A stretch of DNA of 64,000 nucleotides. Source: Pontibacter flavimaris. GTDB taxonomy: Bacteria; Bacteroidota; Bacteroidia; Cytophagales; Hymenobacteraceae. Shown here piece after piece: positions 1 through 64,000 of the stretch. The position numbers were made by a program, and so were the translations under genes. The stretch lies in assembly GCF_001907195.1 (NCBI RefSeq), contig NZ_LVWA01000009.1:62001-126000 (forward strand). Reading direction: 5' to 3'. The notes under the pieces were generated by a model. It searched no databases, was not told the DNA's origin, and saw nothing but the letters and a program-made list of their open reading frames with translations. Each line of letters starts with the position of its first letter. Within the stretch, counting starts at the first letter, position 1.

Positions 1-173
1 GTGCTCTGTATGTAGTGCAGCAATCTTGATTCTCTCCACGGAGCTAACTAACATGAATATAGTAAAAGTTAATGAGAGGAGTATACTTAGTGAGCGGTAG
101 ACTTGGATTACTCATTGATTGTGTTTTTAGCACTCCTCCTGCCATAACTTATCAGCAATAAACAAAGTAGCTA

Positions 174-914
174 ATGGGTATGGAACATCATGTCTCTATC
201 TGGCCGGTGCTGGTGCTGGCTTTCATCCATTTCTTTGGTATACAGCTACGGTTTCTGGCGGGGGTGCCGCGCAGCGTGTGGCTTTCGGTGGCAGGGGGAG
301 TATCGGTGGCGTACGTATTTCTGCACCTTTTTCCGGAACTCAGCGAGGGGCAGGAGCATGTGTCGCAGCTGAACTGGGCGGAGCAATTCCTGAGTCACCA
401 TGTGTACCTGATGTCGCTGGTCGGGCTGGCTGTTTTCTACGGGCTGGAGCGGGTTGTGGTAGAGGAAAAGTATAGGCAGAGGCAAGCGCCACGCAAAGAG
501 CAACCCCACCAGCAGGGAATCTTCTGGCTGCACATCGGCTCATTTGCCATTTACAACGCGCTTATCGGGTACATCCTTTTTCAGCGGGAAGAGGGCACGC
601 TGCAGAGTTTGCTACTGTTCTCCATTGCCATGGCCCTGCACTTTATCGTGAACGATTTCGGGCTGCAGGAGCATCATCATGATAGCTACCGCCGCATAGG
701 CCGCTGGGTGTTGGTGGCTGCCCTGGTGGTGGGCTGGGGCGTAGGGTATGTGGTGGCGCTGCCCGAGGCGCTGGTTGTGCTGGTAATGGCCTTCGTGGGC
801 GGAGGCGTGATCCTGAACGTGCTGAAGGAAGAGCTGCCCGAGGAGCGTGAAAGCCGCTATTGGGCCTTCATGCTCGGGGCAGGTTTATATGCTATCTTAC
901 TGTTATCTCTGTAG
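174..914 (+). CDS. ZIP-like multi-pass membrane protein
   Basis: A 246-residue, strongly hydrophobic protein with about seven or eight likely membrane segments and little soluble sequence. Two segments recall ZIP (SLC39) metal transporters: an early helix ending FLHLFPELSEG and a late one running into LNVLKEELPEERES, both with the acidic Leu-Pro-Glu pattern of that family. A His cluster (HHHD, near residue 165) would suit metal binding. It lacks the classic HxxxE ZIP core that I could point to, so divalent-metal transport is an inference; a conserved membrane protein of unknown function is the alternative. A second ATG lies two codons downstream. Its last 23 bases overlap the convergent symporter gene. 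No promoter was recognised in the 173 bases upstream. Confidence 0.6.
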   Translation: MGMEHHVSIWPVLVLAFIHFFGIQLRFLAGVPRSVWLSVAGGVSVAYVFLHLFPELSEGQEHVSQLNWAEQFLSHHVYLMSLVGLAVFYGLERVVVEEKYRQRQAPRKEQPHQQGIFWLHIGSFAIYNALIGYILFQREEGTLQSLLLFSIAMALHFIVNDFGLQEHHHDSYRRIGRWVLVAALVVGWGVGYVVALPEALVVLVMAFVGGGVILNVLKEELPEERESRYWAFMLGAGLYAILLLSL

Positions 915-2196
915 GCGGGTGCAGCTGGCCCTCGGTGCGGGCCACCATCATGGCCACCGTGGCATCGCCGGTAATATTTACCGTGGTGCGCAGCATGTCC
1001 AGCAGGCGGTCGGGGGCAAGTATAAGGGCAATGCCCTCGATTGGAATCCCGGCCTGCTGCAGCACGATCACCAGCATCACAATACCCGCACCCGGCACGG
1101 CGGCAGAGCCAATGGAAGCCAGCGTGGCGGTCATCACAATGCCCAGCTGCGCTGACAGGCTCAGGTCGATGCCGTAGGCCTGGGCTATAAAGACAGCCGC
1201 CACGGACTGGTACAGGCTGGTGCCGTCCATGTTCACGGTAGCGCCAAGCGGCAGCACAAAGCTGGTGATCTCCTTGTTAATGCCCAGGTTCTTCTCGGCG
1301 CACTCCATGGTGGCCGGCAGGGTGGCAGCACTGGAGGAGGTGGAAAAGGCCAGCATCTGGGCCGGAAATATGCCTTTCAGGAAATGGGTATACTTTGTTT
1401 TGCCTACCGTTACAACCAGAGCCGGGTACACCACAAAGATCATCAGGGCCAGCCCGATAATCACCACAATACAGTAGTAACCCAGCACCATCAGCAGTTC
1501 CCAGGCCGAGGCCGGGTCATCTCCGGCAAAGTCTACCACCAGCCCCGCCAGCAGGGCAAACACGCCATAGGGTGCGGTCATCATGATGATGTCCACAATC
1601 TTGAGGATGGCCATGTTCGCCCCCTCAAAGAAGTCGTTCACAGGCTGCGCCTTGTCAGGGGGGATCAGGATCAGGGCAATACCGAAGAGCAGGGCGAAGA
1701 AGATTACCTGCAGCATACTGCCGTTGCTGGTCATGGCCAGGAACAGGTTCTCGGGCACAATATCCACAAGTGGCTGCAAGGGCCCCTGTTGCTCCAGGGC
1801 GGCGGCATCGCTTGATTTATCTGAGGCGGTGCTGGCATACTGTTCTTTAAAATCCTCCCGTTTCTCGGGCGAGAAGGCCTTGCCAGGCTCAAAAATATTA
1901 ACCAGGATCAGGCCCAGCACCACAGCCAGCACGGTGGTGGCCAGGTAAGTGCCGATGGTTTTGGTGCCGATGCGCGAGAGGCGGCTGATGTCGCTGAGGC
2001 TGGAAACACCCGTGATAAGCGACACGAGCACCAGCGGCACGGCGATCAGCTTAAGCATGTTGATGAAGATGGTGCCAAAGGGGCTGATCCAATCGGTGGT
2101 GAAGCTATTGAGGCCAAGGGAGCTGGACGACATGCCCCAGGCCACACCCAGTGCCATGCCAATCAGGATTTGCCAGTGTAGAGCGAGTTTCTTCAT
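892..2196 (-). CDS. Dicarboxylate/amino acid:cation symporter (DAACS, SLC1 family)
   Basis: A 434-residue inner-membrane secondary transporter of the GltP/DctA family, which takes up glutamate, aspartate or C4-dicarboxylates with protons or sodium. Seen: the serine-rich re-entrant loop FSTSSSAATLPATMECAE (around 290), the NMDGTSLYQSVAAVF signature (around 325), and the C-terminal substrate-site region with DRLLDMLRTTVNITGD (around 400), where the Asp and Arg bind the substrate carboxylate and amino groups. Length is normal. An extra charged loop rich in Ser, Asp and Gln lies around 115-145. Substrate cannot be fixed from sequence alone. Its 3' end overlaps the convergent ZIP-like gene by 23 bases, so no terminator separates them. 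Confidence 0.9.
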   Translation of the reverse strand: MKKLALHWQILIGMALGVAWGMSSSSLGLNSFTTDWISPFGTIFINMLKLIAVPLVLVSLITGVSSLSDISRLSRIGTKTIGTYLATTVLAVVLGLILVNIFEPGKAFSPEKREDFKEQYASTASDKSSDAAALEQQGPLQPLVDIVPENLFLAMTSNGSMLQVIFFALLFGIALILIPPDKAQPVNDFFEGANMAILKIVDIIMMTAPYGVFALLAGLVVDFAGDDPASAWELLMVLGYYCIVVIIGLALMIFVVYPALVVTVGKTKYTHFLKGIFPAQMLAFSTSSSAATLPATMECAEKNLGINKEITSFVLPLGATVNMDGTSLYQSVAAVFIAQAYGIDLSLSAQLGIVMTATLASIGSAAVPGAGIVMLVIVLQQAGIPIEGIALILAPDRLLDMLRTTVNITGDATVAMMVARTEGQLHPPTEITVR

Positions 2197-2450
2197 ACGC
2201 AGTTGTGCAGGCGGAACTAGGGTTCTGAGGCCGCCGGTTTACTTAAGTATAATGGTTGCAAGAATGATGCTGCTGAAACGACACAACCCAAGCGGTGCAA
2301 GTATGATAAGTGCAGGTGCCGAACAGATGGTAGGTAAAACTAAGCATTTTCTGCAGGATTTCCGGTCTTTCCGCTAAAAAACAGCCTGAAATTAGGTGGG
2401 TTTATACTTTATGCTCATCTCCGAAACCACAGCAGAAGGCCCGGAAAAGC
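2197..2450. other. Intergenic region without a gene
   Basis: This gap, which extends to the cyclophilin stop at 2513, holds the upstream region of the symporter on the minus strand and several AAGTATA/TATACTT motifs, one near 2245 and one near 2402. No open frame with protein-like composition and no clear TAnnTTTG promoter were seen here. The cyclophilin terminator starts at 2451. Confidence 0.6.
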
Positions 2451-2483
2451 AAAAAAGCCAGCCCCGTGCATGCAGGGGCTGGC
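2451..2483 (-). terminator. Rho-independent terminator of the cyclophilin gene
   Basis: A perfect 9-bp GC-rich stem (gccagcccc / ggggctggc) with a 9-nt loop, followed on the minus strand by a run of six T. It lies 30 bases behind the cyclophilin stop codon. Confidence 0.85.
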
Positions 2484-2512
2484 TTTATACTTTGGTGTTG
2501 ATGATGAGGGTG

Positions 2513-2971
2513 TTACGCCTCGTTCACTACGATCTTCTCAATGCGGTCGTTGGCGCGGATCTGGTCGATCACGTCCAGGCCCTCCACCACTTTGCCGAAG
2601 CAGGTATGGTTGCGGTCGAGGTGGGCGGTGTTTTTGCGGCTGTGGCAAACAAAAAACTGAGAGCCGCCGGTGTTGCGGCCGGCATGGGCCATGCTCAGCA
2701 CGCCGCGGTCGTGGTACTGGTTCTCGCCGGAGAGTTCGCAGTCGATTTTATAGCCCGGGCCACCGGTGCCAGGCACGCCTTTGGCGCCCTCGCGCGAGTT
2801 AGGGCAGCCGCCCTGTATCACGAAATCAGGAATAACGCGGTGGAACGTAAGGCCGTCGTAGAAGCCTTCTTTTGCCAGCTTCACAAAATTATCTACCGTT
2901 TTAGGAGCGTCTTTCTCATAAAACTCAACTTTCATTACACCCTTGCCTGTATGGATTTCTGCGGTCTTCAT
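2513..2971 (-). CDS. Cyclophilin-type peptidyl-prolyl cis-trans isomerase
   Basis: A 152-residue single-domain cyclophilin without signal peptide, so probably cytoplasmic; it catalyses cis-trans isomerisation of Xaa-Pro bonds. Seen: FHRVIPDFVIQGG (catalytic Arg and Phe, residues 43-55), the AHAGRNTGGSQFFV core (Gln and Phe of the active site) and a C-terminal HLDRNHTCFGKVVEG in place of the usual LDGKHTVFG. The tryptophan that confers high cyclosporin affinity is replaced by His, as in many bacterial forms. It is a single transcription unit with its own TAnnTTTG promoter and a strong terminator. Confidence 0.93.
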   Translation of the reverse strand: MKTAEIHTGKGVMKVEFYEKDAPKTVDNFVKLAKEGFYDGLTFHRVIPDFVIQGGCPNSREGAKGVPGTGGPGYKIDCELSGENQYHDRGVLSMAHAGRNTGGSQFFVCHSRKNTAHLDRNHTCFGKVVEGLDVIDQIRANDRIEKIVVNEA

Positions 2972-3009
2972 ATATGGTTCTGTTTAGTTGAAACAATTGG
3001 TACAGATAA

Positions 3010-3017
3010 CAAAAGTA
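3010..3017 (-). promoter_or_regulatory. -7 promoter element of the cyclophilin gene
   Basis: On the minus strand the sequence reads TACTTTTG, matching the Bacteroidota -7 consensus TAnnTTTG, about 40 bases before the cyclophilin ATG. Confidence 0.6.
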
Positions 3018-3110
3018 CGAAAATTATAGTTTAAGAGACCAATAAACCGGGCTTAACACACCGGGCACCAGCAACAAGTATAGGTTACGCGCAAGTATAA
3101 ACCACACACT

Positions 3111-3770
3111 ATGGAAACAATAACGAGAGCCGGGTATGCGCTGGCCCTGTGCTGCAGCATGCTTTTAGCAAGCTGCGGTGGCGGTACCAACGAGGAAAAC
3201 GCCGGAAATGAGATGCAGCGCGTGGCTGGGACAAACCTGCGCGAGGAGCCGGAGTCCCCTGGCACTACCCCCGCCACCCCCGGCAAGCTGTCTGAAGAGG
3301 GTCAGCCGGACGCCGGTAAGACAGGCGCCAGGGTAGGAAGCAATGAGATGACACCCGGTCAGGAAATTTTAGAGAATATCACGGCAAACAAGGAACTGAG
3401 CGTGCTTACTGGTGCGCTGCGGCAGGCCGGGCTGGTGAACACGCTGAATGGTACTGGACCATATACGGTGTTCGCCCCGAAGAACAGTGCGTTTGAGGCC
3501 TTGCCAAATGACTCCCTGGAAGACCTGATGCAGTCCGGGAATAAGCAGCGCCTGACCGATTTGCTGCACAACCACGTGGTGGCCGGGAAACTGACCGCCG
3601 CCGACCTGACAGACGGGACCACGCTCAAAACCACCTCAGGCAGGCAACTCTCCGTTACGAAAAAGGGCAACGATGTGATGGTGAACGGAGCCAGGGTAGC
3701 ACAGGCTGATGTGATGAGCAGCAACGGTGTGATCCATATTGTGGAGGGTGTGCTGGCAACGAAGGAATAA
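3111..3770 (+). CDS. Fasciclin (FAS1) domain lipoprotein
   Basis: A 219-residue exported protein. The N-terminus has a lipoprotein signal peptide ending LLASCGGG (Cys near residue 22), then a low-complexity Pro/Glu/Gly/Thr linker to about residue 80. A single FAS1 domain fills the rest: the H1 motif is seen as GPYTVFAPKNSAFEAL and the H2 region as LLHNHVVAGKLTAADL, ending in the typical VIHIVEGVL. FAS1 domains mediate adhesion or protein-protein contacts at the cell surface; the partner here is unknown. The gene stands alone and ends in a strong terminator. Family call is firm, role is not. Confidence 0.92.
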   Translation: METITRAGYALALCCSMLLASCGGGTNEENAGNEMQRVAGTNLREEPESPGTTPATPGKLSEEGQPDAGKTGARVGSNEMTPGQEILENITANKELSVLTGALRQAGLVNTLNGTGPYTVFAPKNSAFEALPNDSLEDLMQSGNKQRLTDLLHNHVVAGKLTAADLTDGTTLKTTSGRQLSVTKKGNDVMVNGARVAQADVMSSNGVIHIVEGVLATKE

Positions 3771-3792
3771 ATCTCTGCAAACGAGCCGAAGG

Positions 3793-3824
3793 AGGCAGGC
3801 GCTTTAATGGTGCCTGCCTTTTTT
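3793..3824 (+). terminator. Terminator of the fasciclin gene
   Basis: An 8-bp stem aggcaggc/gcctgcct with an 11-nt loop followed by a T run, 22 bases behind the stop codon. Confidence 0.85.
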
Positions 3825-3839
3825 ATGCCCGCGCGATGG

Positions 3840-4541: not shown

Positions 4542-4640
4542 AGTAAGAGTTGTTGCGTTTCAGAAGTATAAGTTTCTGTAACGGGGCGGGTAGCGATTAG
4601 TTAGTGGTGCTGTGGTGGTTGGGCCCGGTATAGCACCACA

Positions 4641-4703: not shown

Positions 4704-4714
4704 CTACAAGTATG

Positions 4715-4762: not shown

Positions 4763-5686
4763 CTATTTCCGGTTGTCGCCGCCATGCAGCATGCTCAGGT
4801 AGCTTTCGTAGCGGGAGAGGGAAATATCGTTGTGGCGTACGGCCTCAATCACGGCGCAGCCGGGCTCGTTAAAGTGGGTGCAGTTGTTGAAGCGGCACTG
4901 GTTCAGGCGCTCCCGCATCTCCGGGAAAAAATGGCTCAGTTCCGCCGCCGGAATATCCACGATGCCTAGTTCCTTAATGCCGGGCGTATCGATGACATAT
5001 GTTTCGGGGTCGATCTCGAACATCTCGGCAAAGGTGGTGGTGTGTACGCCCTTGTCGGAGAAGCCGGAGATCTCAGAGGTTTTCAGCTCCAGGTCGGGCA
5101 CGATGAGGTTGATGAGCGAAGACTTGCCTACGCCGGAGTGCCCGGAGAGCAGCGTGGTTTTGCCGTGCAGCAGCGCCTTTACCTCGTCTATGCCTTCGTT
5201 GTTCATGGCCGATACCGCCAGGCTCGGATAACCGATTTTCTCATACATGTGGCTGATCTGGCGCTGGTACTCCATCACATCCTCGTCATACAGGTCGGTT
5301 TTGTTGAAGATGAGCATGGCCGGGATGTCATAGGCCTCGGCTGTAACCAGGAAACGGTCTATAAAGCCAAAGGAGGTACGCGGCGACACCAGCGTCACGA
5401 TGAGCATGGCCAGATCGAGGTTGGCAGCGATGATGTGGGAGTAGGCTGTCTTGTGCGTGCTCTGGCGGATGATGTAGTTCTCGCGGTCCTCGATCTTGTG
5501 AATCACGGCGGTGTCTTCTCCTGTTGTCTCTACCTCAAACTCCACGCGGTCGCCTACGGCCAGTGGGTTGCTCACCTTCAGGCCCTTTATCTTAAACTTG
5601 CCGCGCAGGCGCGCCCGGTGCAAATTTCCTTCCGCGTCGCGCACCAGATACCACGATCCCGTCGATTTTACTACAATTCCTTTCAT
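4763..5686 (-). CDS. rsgA: Ribosome small-subunit-dependent GTPase RsgA
   Basis: A 307-residue circularly permuted GTPase that acts in late maturation of the 30S subunit. Seen: an N-terminal OB-fold (1-70), G4 NKTD (128-131) placed before the P-loop GHSGVGKS (182-189) as is typical of the permutation, G3 DTPG (233-236) followed by IKELG, and a C-terminal zinc knuckle with the pattern C-x5-C-x-H-x5-C (CRFNNCTH, then PGCAV). Length is normal. Its ATG overlaps the waaA stop as ATGA, so translation is probably coupled; the pair shares a promoter upstream of waaA. Confidence 0.96.
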   Translation of the reverse strand: MKGIVVKSTGSWYLVRDAEGNLHRARLRGKFKIKGLKVSNPLAVGDRVEFEVETTGEDTAVIHKIEDRENYIIRQSTHKTAYSHIIAANLDLAMLIVTLVSPRTSFGFIDRFLVTAEAYDIPAMLIFNKTDLYDEDVMEYQRQISHMYEKIGYPSLAVSAMNNEGIDEVKALLHGKTTLLSGHSGVGKSSLINLIVPDLELKTSEISGFSDKGVHTTTFAEMFEIDPETYVIDTPGIKELGIVDIPAAELSHFFPEMRERLNQCRFNNCTHFNEPGCAVIEAVRHNDISLSRYESYLSMLHGGDNRK

Positions 5687-6933
5687 GTATTCTTTTTAAG
5701 CAGGGCGCTGATGTCGGCCATGATCCTAGCGGTGGCGCCGGCTTGCTCTTGTACGTATTCTTTTTCTTTGCCGGTTATACTTTGGCGGAGGCCCGGCGTG
5801 GTGTGCACTTGCTCAAATGCCTGCAGCAGTTCCCCGGCGTTTTGCACCGGAAAAGCGCAGCCCCGCGCCACCAAATCCTTCGCCTCCTGAAACTTGTCAT
5901 ACTTTGGGCCGAAGAACAGCGGCAGGCCAAACACAGCTGCCTCCAGCGTGTTGTGCAGGCCCTTGCCGAAGGCTCCGCCAATGTAGGCGTAGGTACCGTA
6001 GCTGTAAAGCGCCGAGAGCATCCCGATGTTATCGATCACCAGCACCTTATACTTTGGTGCATCTACTTCCGTAGCTTTGGAGAAGCGCACCGCATCCTCG
6101 CCCACGGCCTGCATCACGGCATTTATACTTGCCTCGTTCACCTCGTGCGGCGCGATGATGAATTTTATACTTGCTTTATAATTTTGAATCAGCGGCAGCA
6201 ATGCCTCTATATCCGCGGGCCAGCTGCTGCCCACCATAAATACCTGCTGCCCGGCAGCGAAGGCCTCTACCAATGGAATCGGTTTTATACTTGCCGCCGT
6301 CTGCAGCACCCTATCAAAGCGCGTGTCGCCGGCTATACTTGCCTTGTTTATACTTATACTTTGCAGCAGCTCCAGCGAGCTTTGGTTCTGGGTATAGATA
6401 TGCGTGAAGCGGCGCAGGATATTGCGGTAAAAATCGCCGTAAGGCTTAAAAAACACCTGCTCGGGCCGGAAAATAGCGGAGATGGAAAGTATAGGGATAC
6501 TTCGCTCAGCCAGCTCCTGCAGGTAATAGTGCCAGAACTCATACTTCACGAACACGGCCAGCCTGGGCCGCGCAATGTCCAGAAAGCGTTTGGCGTTGGA
6601 GGCGCTATCCAGGGGCAGGTAGAAAATGTAGTCGGCACCCGGGTAGTTTTTGCGCACCTCGTAGCCCGAAGGGGAGAAGAAGGTGAGCAGCACTTTATAC
6701 TTCGGAAACGCCTCCCGGAGCGCCTCCATGACCGGCCGCCCCTGCTCAAACTCGCCCAGCGAGGCACAGTGGAACCACACCAGCGGCGCCTGGTTCTGCC
6801 GTAGCGTCTCCTGCAGCCGCTCGAACTGCCGCTCGCGCCCCTGCCGCATCAGCTTCGCCTTCTCGTTAAAAGGGGCTGCCAGGGCAATGGCCGTACGGTA
6901 AGCCTTCAAGCCGATGTCGTAGAGTAGCTTCAA
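5683..6933 (-). CDS. waaA: 3-deoxy-D-manno-octulosonic acid (Kdo) transferase
   Basis: A 416-residue GT-B glycosyltransferase of the inner membrane (family GT30) that adds Kdo from CMP-Kdo to lipid A precursor. Seen: an N-terminal amphipathic segment, the ASLGEFEQGRP motif with the catalytic base Glu at about 61, FVKYEFWHYYLQEL (around 130), and the C-terminal nucleotide-sugar region with YIGGAFGKGLHNTLEAAVFG. Length fits the family. Codon use is odd: about ten AAGTATA motifs lie inside this one gene, read mostly as Ser-Ile (AGT ATA) or Lys-Tyr, using the otherwise rare ATA codon. It overlaps rsgA by 4 bases. Confidence 0.94.
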   Translation of the reverse strand: MKLLYDIGLKAYRTAIALAAPFNEKAKLMRQGRERQFERLQETLRQNQAPLVWFHCASLGEFEQGRPVMEALREAFPKYKVLLTFFSPSGYEVRKNYPGADYIFYLPLDSASNAKRFLDIARPRLAVFVKYEFWHYYLQELAERSIPILSISAIFRPEQVFFKPYGDFYRNILRRFTHIYTQNQSSLELLQSISINKASIAGDTRFDRVLQTAASIKPIPLVEAFAAGQQVFMVGSSWPADIEALLPLIQNYKASIKFIIAPHEVNEASINAVMQAVGEDAVRFSKATEVDAPKYKVLVIDNIGMLSALYSYGTYAYIGGAFGKGLHNTLEAAVFGLPLFFGPKYDKFQEAKDLVARGCAFPVQNAGELLQAFEQVHTTPGLRQSITGKEKEYVQEQAGATARIMADISALLKKNT

Positions 6934-16636: not shown

Positions 16637-17644
16637 ATGAATGACAAACTCGGACTGCCTGTAGGCACAACGCTAGACAGGTTTATCATGCGGAAGCAAG
16701 AGGACTTCCCGTTCGCCACCGGGGAGCTGTCTCAATTGCTTCGTGACATTGCCCTGGCGGCCAAGATCGTGAACCGCGAAATTAACCGGGCCGGCCTGCT
16801 GGATGTCACCGGCGCCTATGGCCAGCAGAACGTGCAGGGCGAGGACCAGCAGAAGCTGGACGTGATCGCAAACATCCGCTTTATACGCGCCCTGCGCAAT
16901 GGCGGCGAGGTGTGCACCATCATTTCGGAGGAGGAAGACGACGCGATCCAGACGGGCAACACCCGCGGCAAGTACATCGTGGCCATCGACCCGCTGGACG
17001 GCTCCTCCAACATCGATGTGAACGTGTCCATCGGCACGATCTTCTCGATCTACCGGCGCACTTCCGAGCAGGGCTGCGACGGCACCATGGCCGACTGCCT
17101 GCAGCCGGGCGTGAACCAGGTAGGCGCGGGCTACATCATCTATGGCTCCTCCACCATGCTGGTGTACACCACGGGCAACGGCGTAAACGGCTTCACCTAC
17201 GACCCCACGCTGGGCGAGTTTTTCCTGTCGCACCCAAACATCTGCACGCCGAAAACGGGCAAGATCTACTCCATCAACGAGGGTACCTACAACTTCTTCC
17301 CGGAAGGCGTGAAGCAGTACGTGCAGTATTGCAAGGACAACGAGTACTCGGCGCGCTATATTGGCTCGCTGGTGGGCGATTTTCACCGGAACCTGCTTAA
17401 GGGCGGCATTTACATCTACCCCTCCACCTCTAAAGTGCCCAAGGGCAAGCTGCGCCTGATGTATGAGTGCAACGCGCTGGCATTTATCGTGGAGCAGGCC
17501 GGCGGAAAGGCCACCAACGGCTCTGAGCGTATTATGGAGCTGGTGCCGACAGAGCTGCACCAACGCTGCCCGCTGTTTATCGGCTCTCCGGAGATGGTAG
17601 ACAAGGCAGAGGAATTCCTGAAGGCCGAAGTGGCCGTAAATTAA
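16637..17644 (+). CDS. fbp: Class 1 fructose-1,6-bisphosphatase
   Basis: A 335-residue metal-dependent phosphatase that converts fructose-1,6-bisphosphate to fructose-6-phosphate in gluconeogenesis. Seen: the metal-binding ISEEED (96-101), the signature [10 protein letters not shown] (118-127), and the C-terminal substrate site [21 protein letters not shown] (near 269). Length and all key acidic residues are as in the FBPase class 1 family. It has its own TAnnTTTG promoter and a terminator and contains no AAGTATA motif, unlike many neighbours. Confidence 0.96.
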
Positions 17645-17683
17645 CCCAACCCATCTGGAATTAGTAATCAACAACAGCATCAC

Positions 17684-18030: not shown

Positions 18031-18049
18031 CAGGCAAAGGTACGTATAC

Positions 18050-18245
18050 TTTAGAAAATGCTGCTGGAAGTATAAATAGCCGAAAGCGGCCATGGTTATA
18101 CTTTATACTTTGATCAGGGTATAAAGTATACTTTTCTACTTCCCCCATTTATACTTTATAGCCCAAGTTGCGATTACCCCGTCCGCATCCCGAAAGTATA
18201 AAACCACTTATACTTCATGTTTATACTTGTGACATCGCCAAAGCA
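18050..18245. repeat. Dense AAGTATA/TATACTT cluster
   Basis: About ten copies of the 7-mer AAGTATA or its complement in under 200 bases, in both orientations, some back to back as tatactttatacttt. No gene is present. Confidence 0.75.
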
Positions 18246-27234: not shown

Positions 27235-27242
27235 TACCTTTG
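27235..27242 (+). promoter_or_regulatory. -7 promoter element of the DUF5686 gene
   Basis: TACCTTTG matches TAnnTTTG. It covers the TTG at 27240, which therefore cannot be the start codon if this promoter is used. Confidence 0.55.
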
Positions 27243-27263
27243 CACGCTTCTAAAAGTATAGCT

Positions 27264-29750
27264 TTGCAAAGATATTTTGTATTATCCCTGCTACTGCTCG
27301 CCTCGCTGGTGAGCCACGCGCAGACCCGCATCTCGGGGCAGGCAACGGATGCCGCCACGGGCGAGGCCCTTCCTTTCGTGGGCATCTTTATCAAGAACTC
27401 CTCCATTGGCACCTCCACCGATGTGGAAGGCAAGTATAACATCCGCCTCTCCGCCACCCCCGACTCGCTGACGGCCGCCTTTGTGGGCTACCTGCCGCTC
27501 ACGCTGCCGGTGCAGCGGGGCGTGGCCGTGCAAACCCTGGACTTTAAGCTGCGCACCAACGCGCAGCAGCTGCAGGAGGTGGTGATACGCCCCGGCGAGA
27601 ACCCGGCCTGGCCTATTATGCGGCGCGTAATAGCGCAAAAGAACGTTAATGACAAGCGCAGGCTTACCGCCTACCAGTACGAGGCCTACACCAAAATGCA
27701 GTTCGACGTGGACAACGTGGGGCGGCAGAAAGGCAAGGGCGTGGTCGGAAAAGCCATCACTTCGCTGGTAGACTCGCAGCTTTACCTGGCTGGCGAGGAT
27801 GGTAAAAAGCTGCTGCCGTTCTTTATTTCCGAGTCGCTCTCTGACTTTTACTACACCCGCGATCCCAAGCGCAGCAAGGAAATTATAAAAGCTACCAAGG
27901 TAACTGGCATCGGCCTGCAGGACGGCACGCTGGTGTCGCAGGTGATCGGCAGCAACTACCAGGATTATAACTTTTACCAGAACTGGGTGAGCGTGCTGCA
28001 GAAGAACTTCATCAGCCCGATGGCCGACAGCTGGAAAGGCTACTATACCTATGAACTGGAGGACAGCACCTACATCGGCGACGACTGGTGCTACGAACTC
28101 TCCTTTAAGCAGAAGCGCCCGCAGGACCTGGCTTTTAACGGCCGTATGTGGATCACGGCGGATGGCTATGCGCTGCGCAAGCTGGACGCCACGGTAAGCA
28201 AATCAGCCAACATCAACTTTGTGGAGGGCATCGCCCTGAAGCAGGAGCTGCAGCAGGTAGGGGAGCAGGCCTGGATGCCGCTGGGCACGGAGGTGAAGAT
28301 CAGAATCGTGGGCCTCACGCCGAAACGCCCGGGTGTTCTGGCGAAAGTTTATACTTCGTACCGGGATGTGGTGGTGAACCAGCCGGAAAAACCCGGTTTC
28401 TTCGATAAGCCGGTTGAACTGCTGACCGGGGCCGGCAGGCAGGCGGAGAGCTTTTGGGAGCAGCGCCGCCACGACACCCTCAGCGTAGCCGACCGGCAAG
28501 TATACGCCACCATCAATGCCATCCGCGAAACGCCCAAAGTGAAGCGCTTTACCGATATGGCCACCGTGCTGGGCACCGGTTACAAGAGCTTCGGCAAGGT
28601 AAGCTGGGGACCATGGCCGTATACGTACGCTTACAACGACGTGGAGGGGCACTGTTTTCAGCTGGGCGGCAAGACCAACATCAACTTCAGTGACAAGCTG
28701 GAGCTGCGCGGCTACGCGGCCTATGGCACCGACGACCAGAAGTATAAGTATAGCCTGAGCGGGCGCTACATCCTCAGCCGCAAGCGCTGGAGCGAGGTGG
28801 GATTTACCCATCAGGAGGACCTGCAGCAGGTGGGGCTGATGTCGGATAAACTGGCGTCTAGTCCGTTTTTCCTGGGCTTCTCCCGGTTTGGTGAGCTGCG
28901 CCGTCCGATGATGGTGCGCGAGACGAATTTATACTTGCAGCGCGACGTGCTGCGCGGCGTAACCGAGCGCATCAGCCTGCGCAAGCGCCACTTCGACCCG
29001 CACTACGATTTTGCCTACTACAGGAATGGAGCAGACCAACCGGATGAACTGGCGAGCAGCTTTACTTCCACCGAAGTGAGCTTCCTGACCCGCTATGCCA
29101 GGGATGAAGTATACGTGGAGAACGATAATGACCGCATCAGCCTGGGCAGCGGCAGTTACCCAGTGCTGAGCCTGAAGTATACCCTGGGCCTGAACAACGC
29201 CCTAGGCGCTACGGTGGATTACCAGCGCGTGGACCTGGGGGTGGAGCAGGAGTTTGTGATGGGCCGCCTGGGCAACGCGCTCTACAGGCTGGAGGCTGGC
29301 AGGATCTTCTCGCCGGTGCCGTACCCGCTGCTGGAGGTGCACACCGGCAACGAGACGCCCTTCTATTACGACGCCACCTACAACCTGATGGACTACTTCG
29401 AATTCGCCAGCGATACCTATGCCTCCCTGCACTACGAGCAGTATTTCGAGGGATTGCTGTTCAACCGCCTGCCGCTCATCAAGAAACTGAAGTGGCGCGT
29501 GCTGGGCTCAGCCAACATCCTCTACGGCAGCCTCAGCCAAAGTAACCTGAACCTGATGCCGGAGCTAACGCCCGCAGGTAATCGGCAGGAGTCGTTCAAG
29601 GAACTGGGGCACGCGCCCTATGTGGAGTTGGGCTATGGGATTGAAAACATCTTCAAGATCCTCCGCGTGGATGCTTTCCACCGCCTCACCCACCTGGACG
29701 AAGGCACCCGGAAGTTCGGGCTCAAGTTCTCGGTGCAGTTTAAGCTGTAA
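27264..29750 (+). CDS. DUF5686 outer-membrane protein with regulatory-like domain
   Basis: A protein of about 828 residues. Signal peptide (LQRYFVLSLLLLASLVSHAQ), a CarboxypepD_reg-like beta sandwich (about residues 20-105, TDAATGEALPFVGIFIKN and GTSTDVEGKYNI), then a large DUF5686 region (WPIMRRVIAQKNVNDKRR onward) whose C-terminal half consists of amphipathic strands ending in KFGLKFSVQFKL, as in an outer-membrane barrel. Function is unknown; the architecture resembles TonB-receptor-like surface proteins. Start: no ATG exists near; TTG 27240 lies in the promoter element, so TTG 27264 is preferred. Contains nine AAGTATA motifs. Confidence 0.85.
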   Translation: MQRYFVLSLLLLASLVSHAQTRISGQATDAATGEALPFVGIFIKNSSIGTSTDVEGKYNIRLSATPDSLTAAFVGYLPLTLPVQRGVAVQTLDFKLRTNAQQLQEVVIRPGENPAWPIMRRVIAQKNVNDKRRLTAYQYEAYTKMQFDVDNVGRQKGKGVVGKAITSLVDSQLYLAGEDGKKLLPFFISESLSDFYYTRDPKRSKEIIKATKVTGIGLQDGTLVSQVIGSNYQDYNFYQNWVSVLQKNFISPMADSWKGYYTYELEDSTYIGDDWCYELSFKQKRPQDLAFNGRMWITADGYALRKLDATVSKSANINFVEGIALKQELQQVGEQAWMPLGTEVKIRIVGLTPKRPGVLAKVYTSYRDVVVNQPEKPGFFDKPVELLTGAGRQAESFWEQRRHDTLSVADRQVYATINAIRETPKVKRFTDMATVLGTGYKSFGKVSWGPWPYTYAYNDVEGHCFQLGGKTNINFSDKLELRGYAAYGTDDQKYKYSLSGRYILSRKRWSEVGFTHQEDLQQVGLMSDKLASSPFFLGFSRFGELRRPMMVRETNLYLQRDVLRGVTERISLRKRHFDPHYDFAYYRNGADQPDELASSFTSTEVSFLTRYARDEVYVENDNDRISLGSGSYPVLSLKYTLGLNNALGATVDYQRVDLGVEQEFVMGRLGNALYRLEAGRIFSPVPYPLLEVHTGNETPFYYDATYNLMDYFEFASDTYASLHYEQYFEGLLFNRLPLIKKLKWRVLGSANILYGSLSQSNLNLMPELTPAGNRQESFKELGHAPYVELGYGIENIFKILRVDAFHRLTHLDEGTRKFGLKFSVQFKL

Positions 29751-35362: not shown

Positions 35363-35713
35363 TAGCTATCAAACTAATACCCAGTCCTTGGGTTCAGCGC
35401 CTTGTGAGATCCGGTGCCCTGCAAGGGCAGCGCCCTGGCGCAGGAGGGAACACAGCGCGATGCCTGAGAGAGTTTACCCCGAAGCATTTCGGGGAGCCCT
35501 CTCGGGCTTGAGAGTACCAATGTCAGAAATGAAACGGTAGGCTTATGTGAACTAGAGGATCAGCGGTGTTTTGAAAGTATAGCTTGGTTTAGGTTGAAGG
35601 AAGCGGAGGCTAAAAAAGTATAAAGTATAGCAAGTATAAAGTATAGCCAAAGTATAAAAAGGCACAAGCGGACGCCCCCAAATGCTCTGGGCCTTTCAGC
35701 TTGCGCCAGCAGA
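35363..35713 (+). repeat. Long intergenic repeat, copy B (with two nested insertions)
   Basis: Same block order as copy A (18247-18556). Differences: about 20-25 bases carrying the palindrome ccccgaagcatttcgggg interrupt the gagccctctcggg stem (about 35471-35494); a 25-base unit of related sequence (cccaaatgctctggg core, 35676-35700) splits the H1 palindrome at its centre; and an array of AAGTATA motifs (about 35609-35660) lies before H1 where copy A has none. Confidence 0.72.
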
Positions 35714-35770
35714 AGTATGGCAAAGTATAAATCGACAAGTATAAAAGTATAGCTGAAGTATAAAAGTAGG
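35609..35770. repeat. AAGTATA array
   Basis: About ten AAGTATA units in 160 bases, nearly all in one orientation, spaced 9-20 bases apart (for example aaagtataaagtatagc). It starts inside copy B of the long repeat and continues beyond it. The rest of the gap to 36021 holds no gene. Confidence 0.75.
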
Positions 35771-36021: not shown

Positions 36022-37827
36022 CTACGAATCCACTCTGGCCATGCGGTTACGCTCGTTCTCGTCGAGGTAGATCTTGCGCATGCGCAGGCTCTTGGGCGTC
36101 ACCTCCAGGTACTCATCCTTCTGAATGTACTCCATGGCCTCCTCCAGCGAGAAGTTCTTGGCCGGGGCGATCTTGGCGTTGTCATCTGAGCCGGAAGCCC
36201 GCATGTTGGTCAGCTTCTTGCCTTTCTGGATGTTCACCGTGATATCGTTCTGGCGGTTGTGCTCGCCAATTACCTGGCCCATGTATACATCCACGCCCGG
36301 ATCAACGAAGAACACGCCTCTATCCTGCAGCTTGTCGATAGAATAAGCCGTACCAGGGCCGGTTTCCATAGAGATGATGGAGCCGTTGTTACGACCCGGG
36401 ATAGGGCCTTTGAACGGCTCATAGCTCTGGAAGCGGTGGTTCATGATCGCCTCACCAGCCGTGGCTGTGAGCACGTTGTTACGAAGGCCGATCAGACCGC
36501 GCGCCGGAATGTTGAACTCCAGGTGCTGCAGGTCTCCCTTTGGCTCCATAATAGAAAGCTCACCCTTGCGCATCGACACCAGCTCGATAACTTTACCGGC
36601 CGTTTCCTCCGGAACGTCTACCACCAGGTGCTCGATTGGCTCGTGGCGTACGCCGTCTATTTCTTTAAAGATTACCTGCGGCTGACCAACCTGAAGCTCA
36701 TAGCCCTCGCGGCGCATGGTTTCGATCAGTACAGACAAGTGCAGGATACCACGGCCGAATACCAGGAAGGAGTCCTCGCGGTCGGTTTCCTGTACGCGCA
36801 GGGCCAGGTTTTTCTCCGTTTCCTTGAACAGACGGTCGCGCAGGTGGCGCGAAGTCACGAACTTGCCCTCTTTGCCGAAGAAAGGAGAGTTGTTGATCGT
36901 GAACAGCATGTTCATCGTCGGCTCGTCGATAGCGATACGGGTAAGCGGCTCGGGGTTCTCCGCGTCAGCGATCGTGTCGCCAATGTCGAAGCCCTCGATA
37001 CCTGTCACGGCGCAGATCTCGCCGGCAGACACTTCCTGAACGGATTTCTTGCCCAGGCCTTCGAATACCTGAAGCTCCTTGATACGGCCTTTCTTGATGG
37101 AGCCGTCTGCTTTGCAAAGGGAGATCGGCATGCCCTCCTTCAGTGTTCCGCGGTGCACGCGGCCCACCGCGATACGACCCACGAAAGAAGAGTAGTCCAG
37201 GGACGTGATCTGCATCTGCGGCGTACCTTCGCGGTAAGGCGCAGGCGGGATCACATCAATGATGGCGTCCAGCAGCGGCGTGATGTCGGTGGTTGGCTTT
37301 GTCCAGTCGGTGCTCATCCAGCCCTGCTTCGAGGAGCCGTACAGCGTGGTGAAGTCCAGCTGGTCTTCTGAGGCGTCCAGGTTGAACATCAGGTCGAACA
37401 CCTGCTCGTGCACCTCGTCGGGGCGGCAGTTTTCCTTGTCCACTTTATTTACCACCACAATCGGCTTCAGGCCCAGCTGTATCGCCTTGCCCAGCACGAA
37501 GCGGGTCTGCGGCATGGCGCCCTCAAAGGCGTCCACCAGCAGCAGTACCCCGTCGGCCATTTTCAGCACGCGCTCCACCTCGCCACCGAAGTCGGCGTGA
37601 CCAGGCGTGTCAATTACATTGATCTTAACACCCTTATAGCGAACCGACACGTTCTTAGAAACGATCGTGATACCACGCTCGCGCTCCAGGTCGTTGTTGT
37701 CCAGAATAAGGTCGTCAAACTGCTGGTGCTCAGAGAATAGCTTGGAAGCATGGATGATCTTGTCCACAAGCGTCGTCTTGCCGTGGTCTACGTGTGCGAT
37801 GATCGCAATATTTCGAATATTTTGCAT
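36022..37827 (-). CDS. typA: Translational GTPase TypA/BipA
   Basis: A 601-residue ribosome-associated GTPase related to EF-G, important for 50S assembly and growth under stress. Seen: G1 AHVDHGKTTLVDK (11-23), switch I with ERGITI, G3 DTPGHADFGGEVER (near 74), G4 NKVD (near 128), then domain II, and the BipA-specific C-terminal region with ARGLIGLRNNVLTATAGEA and NKEVTVNI-like NDITVNIQKGKKLTNMRASGSD (given as parts). Length is normal. It has its own promoter and terminator and contains no AAGTATA motif in 1.8 kb. Confidence 0.96.
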   Translation of the reverse strand: MQNIRNIAIIAHVDHGKTTLVDKIIHASKLFSEHQQFDDLILDNNDLERERGITIVSKNVSVRYKGVKINVIDTPGHADFGGEVERVLKMADGVLLLVDAFEGAMPQTRFVLGKAIQLGLKPIVVVNKVDKENCRPDEVHEQVFDLMFNLDASEDQLDFTTLYGSSKQGWMSTDWTKPTTDITPLLDAIIDVIPPAPYREGTPQMQITSLDYSSFVGRIAVGRVHRGTLKEGMPISLCKADGSIKKGRIKELQVFEGLGKKSVQEVSAGEICAVTGIEGFDIGDTIADAENPEPLTRIAIDEPTMNMLFTINNSPFFGKEGKFVTSRHLRDRLFKETEKNLALRVQETDREDSFLVFGRGILHLSVLIETMRREGYELQVGQPQVIFKEIDGVRHEPIEHLVVDVPEETAGKVIELVSMRKGELSIMEPKGDLQHLEFNIPARGLIGLRNNVLTATAGEAIMNHRFQSYEPFKGPIPGRNNGSIISMETGPGTAYSIDKLQDRGVFFVDPGVDVYMGQVIGEHNRQNDITVNIQKGKKLTNMRASGSDDNAKIAPAKNFSLEEAMEYIQKDEYLEVTPKSLRMRKIYLDENERNRMARVDS

Positions 37828-58492: not shown

Positions 58493-58664
58493 CAGGGCGC
58501 TTATACTTTGTTCACTCTCTGGCGCGAGTCTCCGACTTGTGTCTACTGTGGTGTCGGTCCTGTGGCTTTGGTGGCTTGAAGAGCCATACTTTATACTTGT
58601 CTGAATCAGAATTTTCAGGATGAAGGGATGAGCAGGGCTTTATACTTTGGCTATACTTCAGATT

Positions 58665-59066
58665 ATCTCTGGCGCAAGCGTCCGCTTGTGCCTTCTTATA
58701 CTTTGGCTGATTTGCTGTTCCGGACATCCTTGTCTGGAACCAAAGCTGCTGCGGATTTCCTAATCCGCTTAGTGCGCACTACTATACTTCTCTTTATACT
58801 TGCTCATACTTGCTGATTTATACTTTCCTGGCCGCTGCTTCCTGCAACTGGAACTAAGCTATACTTTGTAGCTGCCGTTCATCCTATAGACTTACATACC
58901 TACCGTTTCATTTCATACTTTGGTGCTCTCAAGCCCGAGAGGGCTCGTTTTCCCGCTCGGCGCTGGGAGCTTTTCCTTTGCTCCTGACGTCGCAATGCCC
59001 TCCGGGCACCAGAAAAACTCGCATAGGCGCCTCACAGAAAAACTGGGTTCTAATTCGATAGCTTCT
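58665..59066 (-). repeat. Long intergenic repeat, copy C (inverted, with an insertion cluster)
   Basis: Reverse complement shows the block order of copies A and B: tatcgaa, ggtgcccggagggca, gagccctctcgggcttgag, agagcaccaaagtatgaaat, tatgtaagtctataggat, gaagcagcggc, and H1 (58671-58692). Between the gaagcagcggc block and H1 lie about 120 extra bases made of AAGTATA motifs and two palindromes, the same place where copy B has an AAGTATA array and copy A nothing. Confidence 0.72.
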
Positions 59067-60534: not shown

Positions 60535-60779
60535 AGTAGTGTAATGTGAGGTAGGGCTTCTGCGGCTGCGACGCCTCGGATTCAGATGCTATCATACGGC
60601 GTCGTCGTCAGTTTGGCTGCCCGGTTCAGGTAAAGATGCGGTGCAAATGCTCTTTAATATACCATTTTCCCGCAAAGTATAATAGTTTAGTCCTATACTT
60701 TTTTAGGAAGAGCTGGGCCATGGCCGCGTTTTCAGCGTAAATTCATAGCTTGCGATCTCTAAACCCAACTACGCAGACG

Positions 60780-61586
60780 ATGCTCGATTTCCCGAACGCC
60801 AAGATAAACCTGGGCTTGTACATCACCGAGAAGCGCCCCGACGGTTTCCACAACCTGCAGTCGTGCTTTTACCCGGTGCGCTGGTGCGATGCGTTGGAGC
60901 TACTGCCTGCGGAGGAGTTGCGGTTTGATATGACGGGCCTGCCGGTGCCCGGAAACCCGGAGACGAACCTGTGCCTGAAAGCCTACAAGCTGCTGCAGCA
61001 GGATTACAACTTGCCGCCGGTGCACCTGCACCTGCACAAGGTGATACCCATGGGAGCGGGCCTGGGAGGCGGCTCTGCGGACGCGGCTTTTACCCTGCGC
61101 CTGCTTAACCAGCAGTTTGCGTTAAATCTAAGCGATGAGGTACTGGAGAACTACGCCCGCCAACTGGGCTCCGACTGCGCTTTCTTCGTGCAGAACAAGC
61201 CCGTTATCGCCACGGAACGCGGGGATGTGTTTACGCCGGTCGCCCTGGACCTGAGCGGCTATACATGTGTGGTGGTTTACCCGGGCATCCACATCACCAC
61301 GGCAGAGGCTTACGGAAGTATAAAACCGCAGCAACCTTCCTGCTCTATGGAGATGCTCCTGAAGCAGGACGTGAAAGTATGGAAAGAGGTGCTGAAGAAC
61401 GACTTTGAGGAAGCCCTATTCCCGAAGTACCCGGAGCTGCCACAGCTAAAGGAGCAGCTCTATGAGGCTGGCGCCACCTATGCCGCCATGACGGGCTCGG
61501 GCTCCGCCGTGTACGGCCTGTTTAAGGAGACGCCCCCTAACTTAGTCTTTCCCGCTCACTACGCTGTCTGGCAGGGGCTGCTGTAG
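60780..61586 (+). CDS. ispE: 4-diphosphocytidyl-2-C-methyl-D-erythritol kinase
   Basis: A 268-residue GHMP kinase of the MEP isoprenoid pathway. Seen: MLDFPNAKINLGLYITEKRP with the substrate-site Lys, DGFHNLQSCFYPV, the GHMP ATP loop PMGAGLGGGSADAAF (near 89-103), the Asp of LGSDCAFFVQNKP, and AMTGSGSAVYGLF motif 3 (near 245). ATG 60780 is chosen over TTG 60750 because the family N-terminus begins there. Its last 45 bases overlap the convergent DMT transporter gene. Confidence 0.95.
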   Translation: MLDFPNAKINLGLYITEKRPDGFHNLQSCFYPVRWCDALELLPAEELRFDMTGLPVPGNPETNLCLKAYKLLQQDYNLPPVHLHLHKVIPMGAGLGGGSADAAFTLRLLNQQFALNLSDEVLENYARQLGSDCAFFVQNKPVIATERGDVFTPVALDLSGYTCVVVYPGIHITTAEAYGSIKPQQPSCSMEMLLKQDVKVWKEVLKNDFEEALFPKYPELPQLKEQLYEAGATYAAMTGSGSAVYGLFKETPPNLVFPAHYAVWQGLL

Positions 61587-62483
61587 TTTCCTTTTACGGC
61601 GCTTTTCCAGCGTGTCCAGCACAGGGTAAATAAACACACTCAGCAGGATAACCCCGGCGCCTATGTAAAAGCCCTGCGATAGCTGGTCGCCCTCGTTAAA
61701 GATAAACCAGGCAAGTATAATCCCATACACCGGCTCCAGGTTCACGGTCAGGTTCACAGTATAGGCTGAGATGCGCTGCATCAGGCGAACGGAAGCGGTG
61801 TAGGCATACACCGTGCAGGCCAGCGCCAGCACCAGCAGGTATATCCAATCCATTCCGGTAAGGCCGAAGTTCAGGCTGCCCTCTGCAAAGTATAACGTAT
61901 AAACCGGGAAGAAGAGCACCGTGCCCACAAACGCCCCGGCCATCTCATACATGGTAATGGTGGTGGAGGGTATCGTCTTGACCAGGTTGGCGTTGATGAT
62001 GGTGAAGATAGAGCCAAGCAGTGCCGCGCCTATGGCCATGCTGATGCCCAGCACACTATCGAAACTGGTTTCGTGCTGGAAGATGATGTAGAGACCCATG
62101 ATCACGAGCAGGGCCAGGAAAATCTCGTGTGGCTTTACCTTGCCCTTGTTGAAGAGCGGCTCCAGAAAGGCTGTCCAGAGGCTGCTGGTGGAGAGGCCCA
62201 CCAAACTGATGGACACCGAAGACACCCGCGCCGCCGCAAAGAACAGAATCCAGTGGGCAGCAATGACTACACCTACCAGCATGATCCGGATAACCATGGC
62301 GCGCCCTATCCCAAAAGGCGTGCCGTTCCTATACATGATGGCTCCCAGCGCCAGCGCCGTGATGAGGGTGCGCATGGCCACCAGCTCCACGGCAGGTATG
62401 GTGATCAGCTTACCAAGTATGGCCGTGAAGCCCCACAGGAAGATAACAAAGTGGAGCTCGATAAAATCTTTGAGACGTGGCAT
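61542..62483 (-). CDS. EamA/DMT superfamily transporter
   Basis: A 313-residue inner-membrane protein with ten predicted helices in two EamA repeats. Repeat 1 shows FVIFLWGFTAILGKLITIPA, LVAMRTLITALALG and ARVSSVSISLVGLSTSSLWTA (given in parts); repeat 2 shows TITMYEMAGAFVGTVLF and NLEPVYGIILAWFIFNEGDQL, the usual EPVxxxxxxxxxxGE-like end. Members export or import amino acids and other small metabolites; the substrate is unknown. Its ATG abuts the stop codon of the LptF/G gene (TAA-ATG), so both are one unit. Overlaps the ispE 3' end by 45 bases. Confidence 0.9.
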   Translation of the reverse strand: MPRLKDFIELHFVIFLWGFTAILGKLITIPAVELVAMRTLITALALGAIMYRNGTPFGIGRAMVIRIMLVGVVIAAHWILFFAAARVSSVSISLVGLSTSSLWTAFLEPLFNKGKVKPHEIFLALLVIMGLYIIFQHETSFDSVLGISMAIGAALLGSIFTIINANLVKTIPSTTITMYEMAGAFVGTVLFFPVYTLYFAEGSLNFGLTGMDWIYLLVLALACTVYAYTASVRLMQRISAYTVNLTVNLEPVYGIILAWFIFNEGDQLSQGFYIGAGVILLSVFIYPVLDTLEKRRKRKLQQPLPDSVVSGKD

Positions 62484-63560
62484 TTAGCGCGGAACGTAAC
62501 GGTATAATAAAAAGCCGATGCCTGTAAACACGATGGTCGGGATCCAGGCGGCGATCTGCGGCGCAATATCGCCCACCTGCGCCAGGCTTCGGCTCGTGAT
62601 CACGAAAATGATGAAGATGAAGGCCAGCAAAAAGCCCAGCGCAATCTGGAAGCCCACGCCACCCCGCGCCTTGCGCGCACTCACGATCACCCCGATCACG
62701 GTAAGTATGATGATGGCGAAGGGGTAGCTGAAGCGCTCATACTTTTCGATGAGGTACGTCTCGATGTCGTCGGCGCCACGTGCTATCTTCTCGTTGATGT
62801 AGTCGTTCAGCTGCGTCAGCGTCAGGGTCTGCTCCAGCTTGTAGGTGCTCTCAAAGTCCTTGGGCCACATATTTAGGGTGGTATCCAGGTTGCTGCCTTT
62901 GTAAATGGTTTCGTTCTCGCCATCAAAGGTGCGCAGCGTGTACTGGTTGATGTGCCACTTCTCTTTCTCGGCGTTCCAGGAGATGCTGCTGGCGCTGAGC
63001 TTCTGGTGCAGGTCAGTGCCCTTTATGGTTTCCATGGCAAAGTTGTAGCCAATGTGGGCCGCGTTGTTGTAACTCTCCATGTACACGTAAGCATCCGGCC
63101 CGATTTTGATGTGGATGTTGCGGCTGTCGTAGGTAAAGGGGCTCTTGATGTACTTCACCTCAAAAGCTACCCGCTCTTTGTTCGCGATGGGGATCACCCA
63201 GCCGATCAGCACGAAGATAGTGGCCCCGATGATCGAGGCACCTATCAGGTAAGGCACCAGCAGGCGCCTGAAACTCACGCCGCTGCTCAGGATGGCCACA
63301 ATCTCGGTATGCGAGGCCAGCTTGGCCGTAACGAAAACCGTGGCGATGAACACCGTGATCGGACTGAGCATGTTGGCGTAAAACGGCACCAGGTTCAGAA
63401 AATAATCGAACAGGATCTCGTGCGCACTTGGGTTCGTCTTGATGAAGTCGTCATTCTTCTCGGTGAATTCAATCACCAGAATAACGGCCACTAAAATCAG
63501 CACCGTAAACACGTAGGCGCTCAGGAACTTCTTTAGTATGTACTTGTCGAGGAGCTTCAA
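62484..63560 (-). CDS. LptF/LptG family LPS export permease
   Basis: A 358-residue YjgP/YjgQ-type permease that, with LptB and LptC, extracts lipopolysaccharide from the inner membrane. Seen: opening LLDKYILKKFLSAYVFTVLI, helix 2 PFYANMLSPITVFIATVFV, HTEIVAILSSGVSFRRLLVPY (coupling helix contacting LptB, given in parts), a periplasmic beta-jellyroll from about 130 to 250, and three C-terminal helices. Bacteroidota often carry LptF and LptG apart; which one this is cannot be decided. First gene of a unit with the DMT transporter. Confidence 0.92.
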   Translation of the reverse strand: MKLLDKYILKKFLSAYVFTVLILVAVILVIEFTEKNDDFIKTNPSAHEILFDYFLNLVPFYANMLSPITVFIATVFVTAKLASHTEIVAILSSGVSFRRLLVPYLIGASIIGATIFVLIGWVIPIANKERVAFEVKYIKSPFTYDSRNIHIKIGPDAYVYMESYNNAAHIGYNFAMETIKGTDLHQKLSASSISWNAEKEKWHINQYTLRTFDGENETIYKGSNLDTTLNMWPKDFESTYKLEQTLTLTQLNDYINEKIARGADDIETYLIEKYERFSYPFAIIILTVIGVIVSARKARGGVGFQIALGFLLAFIFIIFVITSRSLAQVGDIAPQIAAWIPTIVFTGIGFLLYRYVPR

Positions 63561-63650
63561 CTTAAGTTAGAAAGTTTAAAGTTAGAAAGTTAGAAAGTGG
63601 GAGAATTAGCAAGTATAACTTTTTAACTTTCTAACTCTCTAACTTTCTAA
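63561..63650. repeat. Mirror-like GTTAGAAA/TTTCTAAC tract
   Basis: Units agttagaaag on the left and ctttctaact on the right form a long imperfect inverted repeat between the LptF/G start and the tgt stop, with an AAGTATA motif in the loop. Could act as a terminator for tgt. Confidence 0.7.
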
Positions 63651-64000
63651 CTACAAACGTGTCATCAATTTCTTTACCATCACATCTTTCCAGTCGCGGA
63701 AAGTTCCGTTCAGGATGTGCTGGCGGGCCTGCTTTACCAACCACAGGAAAAACGTGAGGTTGTGCACGCTGGCAATCTGGCCTGCCAGGTACTCAGTGCT
63801 GTGGATGAGGTGGCGCAGGTAGGCCTTGGTGTAAAACGTGCTTACGTAGCCACCCAGCTCCGCGTCTATCGGGCTGAAGTCATCGGCCCACTTCTTGTTC
63901 CGGATGTTGATGATGCCCTGCGTGGTGAACAGCATGCCGTTGCGGGCGTTGCGTGTGGGCAGCACGCAATCGAACATGTCCACGCCCAGGGCAATGTTCT
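63651..64000 (-). CDS. tgt: Queuine/preQ1 tRNA-guanine transglycosylase, 3' part
   Basis: The C-terminal ~116 residues of Tgt; the gene continues beyond the window edge. The enzyme exchanges guanine-34 in tRNAs with GUN anticodons for preQ1. Seen: GVDMFDCVLPTRNARNGMLF with the nucleophile Asp-region and tRNA-binding segment, then PIDAELGGYVSTFYTKAYLRH, IASVHNLTFFLWLVKQAR. In E. coli Tgt this middle part is ECDCYTC with three zinc Cys; here they read Leu, Gly and Ser, while the His ligand (SVHNL) is kept. So the usual zinc site seems to be missing. Confidence 0.92.
   Translation of the reverse strand, partial: NIALGVDMFDCVLPTRNARNGMLFTTQGIINIRNKKWADDFSPIDAELGGYVSTFYTKAYLRHLIHSTEYLAGQIASVHNLTFFLWLVKQARQHILNGTFRDWKDVMVKKLMTRL

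Follow-up and report, generated by a model that had tools for sequence, protein, structure and literature searches.

The 64,000-nucleotide stretch of Pontibacter flavimaris DNA analysed here (contig NZ_LVWA01000009.1, positions 62,001 to 126,000; hereafter the window) is pervaded by a short word, AAGTATA, which occurs 181 times on its two strands, against a mean of 4.15 and a maximum of 10 copies in 100 dinucleotide shuffles. The original prediction, made from the letters of the window, had counted about 180 copies by hand, in both orientations and in spacers as well as genes, a description that holds for the window and for samples from its relatives. Here, we describe the distribution of this word across the genus Pontibacter and weigh the possibility that it acts like a DNA uptake sequence. 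The sites and the features of the window that best display them are as follows.

1 to 64000, both strands: AAGTATA sites (181), scattered throughout, with an extended consensus of approximately (a)AAGTATA(A>G)(A>C)
5683 to 6933, minus strand: Kdo transferase gene (waaA-like, PF04413), 10 sites
18045 to 18228, both orientations: dense cluster of 10 sites
27240 to 29750, plus strand: DUF5686 gene, 9 sites
35575 to 35762, plus strand only: 10 sites clustered between genes, some of them in tandem pairs spaced by 7 bp
36022 to 37827, minus strand: typA, 0 sites, an example of a motif-free conserved gene
58502 to 58866, minus strand only: cluster of 9 sites

The counts of ten and nine for the waaA-like and DUF5686 genes agree with the hand tally, and the DUF5686 protein has its nearest named records in Pontibacter species (89-91% identity), in a search that may have omitted the entry for the window itself. 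The rare codons that the word was said to force are likewise present: the sense frame xxA AGT ATA holds 19 sites in the window against 0.6 in a synonymous-codon shuffle, an excess of about 30-fold. No site falls in typA, prs, rplY (encoding the L25 ribosomal protein) or the peroxiredoxin gene, nor in the small GTPase gene (engB-like, a name taken from the original prediction), the ATP synthase alpha/beta-family gene (its atpD), the OmpA/PD40 gene (presumably its PorE-like gene) or the fructose-bisphosphatase gene (fbp, 16637-17644), the eight genes from which the word had been reported absent.

Against a second-order Markov model, the AAGTATA family led the 7-, 8- and 9-mers of the window (AAGTATA, 181 copies against 8.1 expected; AAGTATAA, 124 against 2.0; AAGTATAAA, 79 against 0.6), and AAGTATG, which had been said to add further copies, was also raised (56 against 8.4). 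The genome of 4,623,791 bp contains 10,628 copies of AAGTATA (5,461 + 5,167), or one site per 435 bp, against 276 copies of the reversed word (134 + 142); the excess is therefore not confined to the window, which disposes of the possibility of a purely local enrichment. In a second species, P. kalidii (genome G020, assigned through an identical TraG protein; 73,841-bp plasmid), each of 20 evenly spaced 20-kb samples of the complete chromosome holds 26-49 sites.

The word exists in several forms within the genus. Scans of k-mers in 20-kb samples revealed relatives enriched in AGGTATA(G) or AACTATAG instead, and 50 Pontibacter genomes were each given a dialect, defined as the commonest word provided that it exceeded 1,500 copies. 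By this measure AAGTATAA (A) dominates in 22 genomes, AGGTATAG (G) in 12 and AACTATAG (C) in 5, and 11 have no dominant word. The sequence logos span about 10 bp, the G and C forms reading (c)AGGTATAG(c) and AACTATAG.t, with no informative positions further out, and the word is non-palindromic, lacking the symmetry of HIP1-type words (GCGATCGC). Three genomes are clear mixtures of A and C copies (G046, 4,476 A and 2,002 C; G061, 3,911 and 2,617; G048, 2,125 and 6,288), G063 combines 6,128 A with 907 C copies, and G017 has the most C words, 8,208. AAGTATA itself is present in 966 to 11,818 copies in 24 relatives within the genus, and at 0.4 to 1.3 times the reversed control in 14 genomes from other families of the same order. 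An excess of the pooled pattern ARSTATAR is seen only among the 50 Pontibacter genomes; in 150 genomes from five other genera of the family, a sample drawn from the larger family, it is at most about 1.4 times control, and k-mer scans of non-Pontibacter loci of at least 7 kb found no word with a comparable excess. Among the motif-poor Pontibacter genomes, G041, G056 and G057 lie at 0.95-1.2 times control and G055 at about 1.45 times; the other seven, at 1.9-3.6 times, may carry the decaying remnants of an earlier excess. Two local accumulations of short words were also noted. At G019 C1:1944098-1946633, about 40 listed copies of AGGTATAG lie on one strand at a regular spacing of about 66 bp, resembling a CRISPR or other repeat array, and locus L013 (G013 C1:1-20000) holds about two dozen TAGTATAG/ACTATACT words, which may form a tandem array confined to that locus.

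The dialects follow the phylogeny of the genus. A tree built from 3.5 kb of rpoC in all 50 genomes unites the 12 G genomes in a single clade (support 100) and groups the five C genomes with G046 and G061 in a second (support 100), inside which all three mixed genomes, G046, G061 and G048, are found; G063 adjoins this clade with weak support (63), and motif-free genomes occur in several branches. Parsimony requires 8 dialect changes on this tree, against a mean of 24.5 and a minimum of 19 in 500 label shuffles. Corresponding figures are 7 for the ComEA-like protein (in a tree that left out G009 and G021, whose genes are broken), 7 for the gene upstream of comEA and 11 for typA. The sorting of the ComEA tree by dialect was at first striking beside typA and suggested ComEA as the reader of the dialects, but rpoC and the upstream gene sort in a similar way, and ComEA is thus no independent pointer to a receptor. 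In the typA tree, G015 (L150) groups with G061 and G004 (support 100); its typA was probably transferred between dialect groups, because G015 falls with the G genomes in the trees of ComEA, of its upstream gene and of rpoC. Candidate switches of dialect in place were found in rpoC, at an A/G place (19 A and 5 G genomes) and an A/C place (2 and 2), and in typA at one A/G place (3 and 1), the cases being few.

Individual sites are retained beyond expectation. When the sites of the window were aligned to nine Pontibacter loci, with words of the same composition as control, retention exceeded control in seven: P. chinhatensis (24/40 against 69/212), P. mucosus (25/40 against 68/210), P. anaerobius (17/38 against 74/219), P. 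litorisediminis (17/37 against 66/213), an uncultured Pontibacter (16/33 against 42/141), P. oryzae (6/19 against 22/87) and P. ruber (2/7 against 1/20). It equalled control, at zero, in P. vulgaris (0/7 and 0/17) and fell below it in the motif-poor P. ummariensis (1/16 against 17/73). Between P. chinhatensis and P. mucosus, which are 92.2% identical, 44 of 51 gap-free sites are identical against 156 of 247 control words (p 0.001); in coding DNA of this pair the figures are 30 of 33 against 102 of 160 (p 0.0018). Insertion of the word as a ready-made unit is disfavoured by the same comparison, in which identical sites make up 44 of 55 and 44 of 51 and most of the others differ by point substitutions. 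Sites at alignment gaps number 4 of 55 and 1 of 51, one of which, present in both lists, was produced by the three-way alignment itself; three further non-identical sites lie within one poorly aligned stretch.

Plasmids contain few sites. For three species, P. kalidii, P. akesuensis and P. actiniarum, we examined 70 non-overlapping kb of a plasmid typed as mobilizable (210 of 394 kb in all), beside chromosomal DNA of P. kalidii and of genomes G001 and G019, which are tentatively assigned to P. akesuensis and P. actiniarum, respectively. In that order of species, the plasmids hold 20, 12 and 18 sites against 13.3, 7.7 and 9.1 expected, and the chromosomes 690, 57 and 43 (in 400, 44 and 44 kb) against 50.5, 6.1 and 4.6. 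Pooled, there are 50 plasmid sites in 210 kb (30 expected) and 790 chromosomal sites in 489 kb (61 expected). In these three species the word is a chromosomal trait.

The relation of the sites to genes was determined with greedy calls of the longest open frames, at least one of which has the wrong orientation (16673-17683, a shadow of the fructose-bisphosphatase gene), so that the coding and gap figures are approximate. Site density is 2.8-8.9 per kb outside the gene calls and 1.2-1.9 within them. In coding DNA the word is commoner than in a synonymous-codon shuffle in all frames and orientations (ratios 3.1-40), save for one frame of the C word, which would hold a stop codon. Sense and antisense sites number 42:40 in the window, 197:190 in G020, 143:187 in G014 and 253:148 in G017, the last imbalance being due in part to a stop in one antisense frame. 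In all four samples, so far as crude gene calls allow, sites are denser in convergent than in divergent gaps, and no promoter-type enrichment upstream of genes is apparent; in the window, tandem gaps are densest, at 12.6 sites per kb. The proposal that selection removes the word from highly expressed genes finds only partial support: the eight genes listed earlier are site-free, but typA carries sites in G genomes and rpoC carries them as well. Across dialects, typA contains 3 sites in the 22 A genomes, none in the 5 C genomes and 18 in the 12 G genomes (0.84 per kb), and rpoC contains 0.76-1.20 per kb. Over 14 genes of the window, site density is weakly related to protein conservation (rho -0.47, p 0.09).

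Transformation genes are present in all 50 Pontibacter genomes. ComEC (PF03772) was found in 50 of 50 genomes, with 702-736 residues in 47, 561 in G017 and stops in G009 and G021; DprA (PF02481) is equally universal and has stops only in G009 and G021. A ComEA-like protein has a membrane anchor and helix-hairpin-helix repeats and measures 310-346 residues between stops in 48 genomes; ComEA models cover part of it, and its sequence also matches ComEA structures. In G021 its gene is broken, and in G009 the gene contains a single early stop. All three genes are thus uninterrupted in 48 of the 50 genomes and interrupted together in G009 and G021, where the comEA-like and comEC loci (L245 and L254 in G009; L252 and L253 in G021) contain stops or frameshifts. 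This joint interruption suggests that ComEC, DprA and the ComEA-like protein act together and are otherwise kept, with sequencing error in the assemblies as an alternative source of the stops. A second gene of the DprA family was observed at G061 C2:451482-452096 and G058 C61:1243-1854.

A genome-wide excess, related dialects and transformation genes (the last also in motif-poor genomes) are features of DNA uptake sequences, as is the depletion from mobile DNA seen on the three mobilizable plasmids. A word that is non-palindromic, chromosome-wide, neutral in orientation (in its A form), poor on plasmids, over-conserved and divided into dialects is best matched by such a sequence, and by this analogy we lean towards the view that the motif acts like one, spread by transformation and recombination. 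Of the four analogues that the original prediction named without choosing among them (DNA uptake sequences, Chi sites, HIP1 and sites for nucleoid proteins), the first is favoured by the dialects, the near-expectation plasmid counts, the intergenic excess and the lack of a significant strand bias, although they are not proof. Competent Pontibacter cells would preferentially take up or retain motif-bearing DNA, one strand of which would enter through ComEC and be guarded by DprA before recombination. Because such DNA would be favoured, alleles gaining a site would displace alleles without one, a molecular drive by which the word would accumulate wherever proteins and regulation tolerate it. A change in the specificity of the receptor would start a new dialect, the genome following slowly, and the A+C genomes would have been caught in transit. 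The fuller proposal, that Pontibacter possesses a pilus-independent, sequence-specific uptake system with an undescribed receptor, three dialects and genomes in mid-switch, we put forward tentatively, at somewhat short of an even chance.

Several observations weigh against uptake as the explanation. A full T2SSE ATPase of the PilB/PilT/GspE type was sought in the 50 genomes and not found; the matches are fragments some 60 residues long, three of them barely above the cut-off. Judged by this ATPase, with no search aimed at pilins, the type IV pilus of Neisseria-type uptake is missing, so that the receptor would be an undescribed one. In all 11 motif-poor genomes comEC, dprA and the comEA-like gene are free of interruptions; the two genomes in which these are broken remain motif-rich (G009, 5,041 copies; G021, 2,537), and a test of one-off variants in both found no clear decay of the word. 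The joint interruption therefore does not tie the genes to the word. G017, the genome richest in C words, has a short ComEC frame (C23:51507-52310), in which the Competence domain is whole and either a contig end or a truncation is possible. Crossing between dialects seems to have occurred for typA of G015 and also for the gene upstream of comEA, the clustering and tandem arrangement of sites are not needed by a model of one tag per fragment, and outside coding DNA the over-conservation between P. chinhatensis and P. mucosus is not significant (14/18 against 52/83, p 0.28). No transformation test of Pontibacter came up in searches of open-licence papers.

A Chi-like signal, improbable in our judgement, would stop a nuclease of the AddAB/RecBCD type, guarding the chromosome and stimulating recombination, and variants of the enzyme would read different words. 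Chi sites are short, over-represented chromosomal words that differ between species, and the Pontibacter word is similarly chromosome-rich, plasmid-poor and lineage-specific. Its intergenic preference is strong, however, and one site per 435 bp is far denser than known Chi sites. A strand bias, for which the original prediction had suggested a test, was sought in the P. kalidii samples, where 368 sites lie on the leading and 322 on the lagging strand as assigned by GC skew over 400 kb (binomial p 0.087), so that no significant bias of the Chi type is seen. Drive on incoming linear DNA would be strand-symmetric, and the lack of bias therefore does not dispose of this explanation.

Binding by a nucleoid protein, with weak selection at thousands of sites and dialects tracking changes in the protein, is also unlikely. 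It accords with the even chromosomal spread, the over-conservation and the clustering of sites, for which the index of dispersion over gaps is 1.6-2.3 and which extends to tandem pairs at a spacing of 7 bp. Motif-free genomes in several branches and three related words in one genus argue against it, and the divergent, promoter-type gaps are not the densest.

Very improbable is a process that turns other words into this one, whether a bias of mutation or repair or a process linked to methylation of the kind proposed for HIP1. Such a process would yield sites on both strands and in all frames, but none of the one-substitution neighbours is clearly depleted in the A sample, a result that also disfavours Vsr-like conversion from a single neighbouring word; the G and C samples show low counts for a few neighbours (0-2 seen against 3-5 expected), too small to weigh either way. 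In addition, plasmids in the same cells are spared, although they may be recent arrivals, and the word is not a palindrome. We give scarcely any credence to a promoter, terminator or other transcription signal, which could account for the intergenic enrichment and the unequal sense and antisense counts of G014 and G017 but not for the near equality of the A word in the window and G020 or for divergent gaps that are not favoured.

Outside the Neisseriaceae and Pasteurellaceae, no well-established uptake sequence with dialects is known to us; no earlier report of the present word was found in the open-licence papers searched, although absence in print is unproven. If the word does direct uptake, Pontibacter, a genus of the Bacteroidota with no type IV pilus, would supply the third case, independent of the other two, and would show that genome-wide tags evolve again with other machinery. 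There would be a receptor to find and, in the A, A+C and C genomes, a natural series for watching dialect change, and tagged DNA could ease the laboratory transformation of Pontibacter.

The Pasteurellaceae have more than one variant of their uptake signal within the family, and the uptake word there has a long flanking pattern. The Pontibacter word resembles this signal as an iterated genome-wide word, the Pasteurellaceae one being linked with competence (PMC1626085); it differs in lacking the long flank and in belonging to another phylum. HIP1 of cyanobacteria is also over-represented and very frequent genome-wide, but is palindromic and discussed together with methyltransferases (PMC4390886), whereas the Pontibacter word is non-palindromic and has dialects. 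In favour of the uptake reading, Riemerella columbina, also of the Bacteroidota, is transformed preferentially with its own DNA; the frequent k-mers listed for it are all A/T-rich, their function being left open by the authors (PMC7965970). Pontibacter differs from the Neisseriaceae in belonging to the Bacteroidota, in the failure to find a type IV pilus ATPase and in the shorter, AT-rich core of its word. The likeness to their DNA uptake sequences nevertheless extends to several features: a short word in thousands of copies, dialects that are akin among related species, one genome carrying two dialects and overlapping dyads (PMC3630211), to which the 84 overlapping pairs of the C word offset by 3 bp in the G017 sample may be compared, and mobile elements set apart by their atypical counts (PMC7371117), as are the plasmids of Pontibacter.

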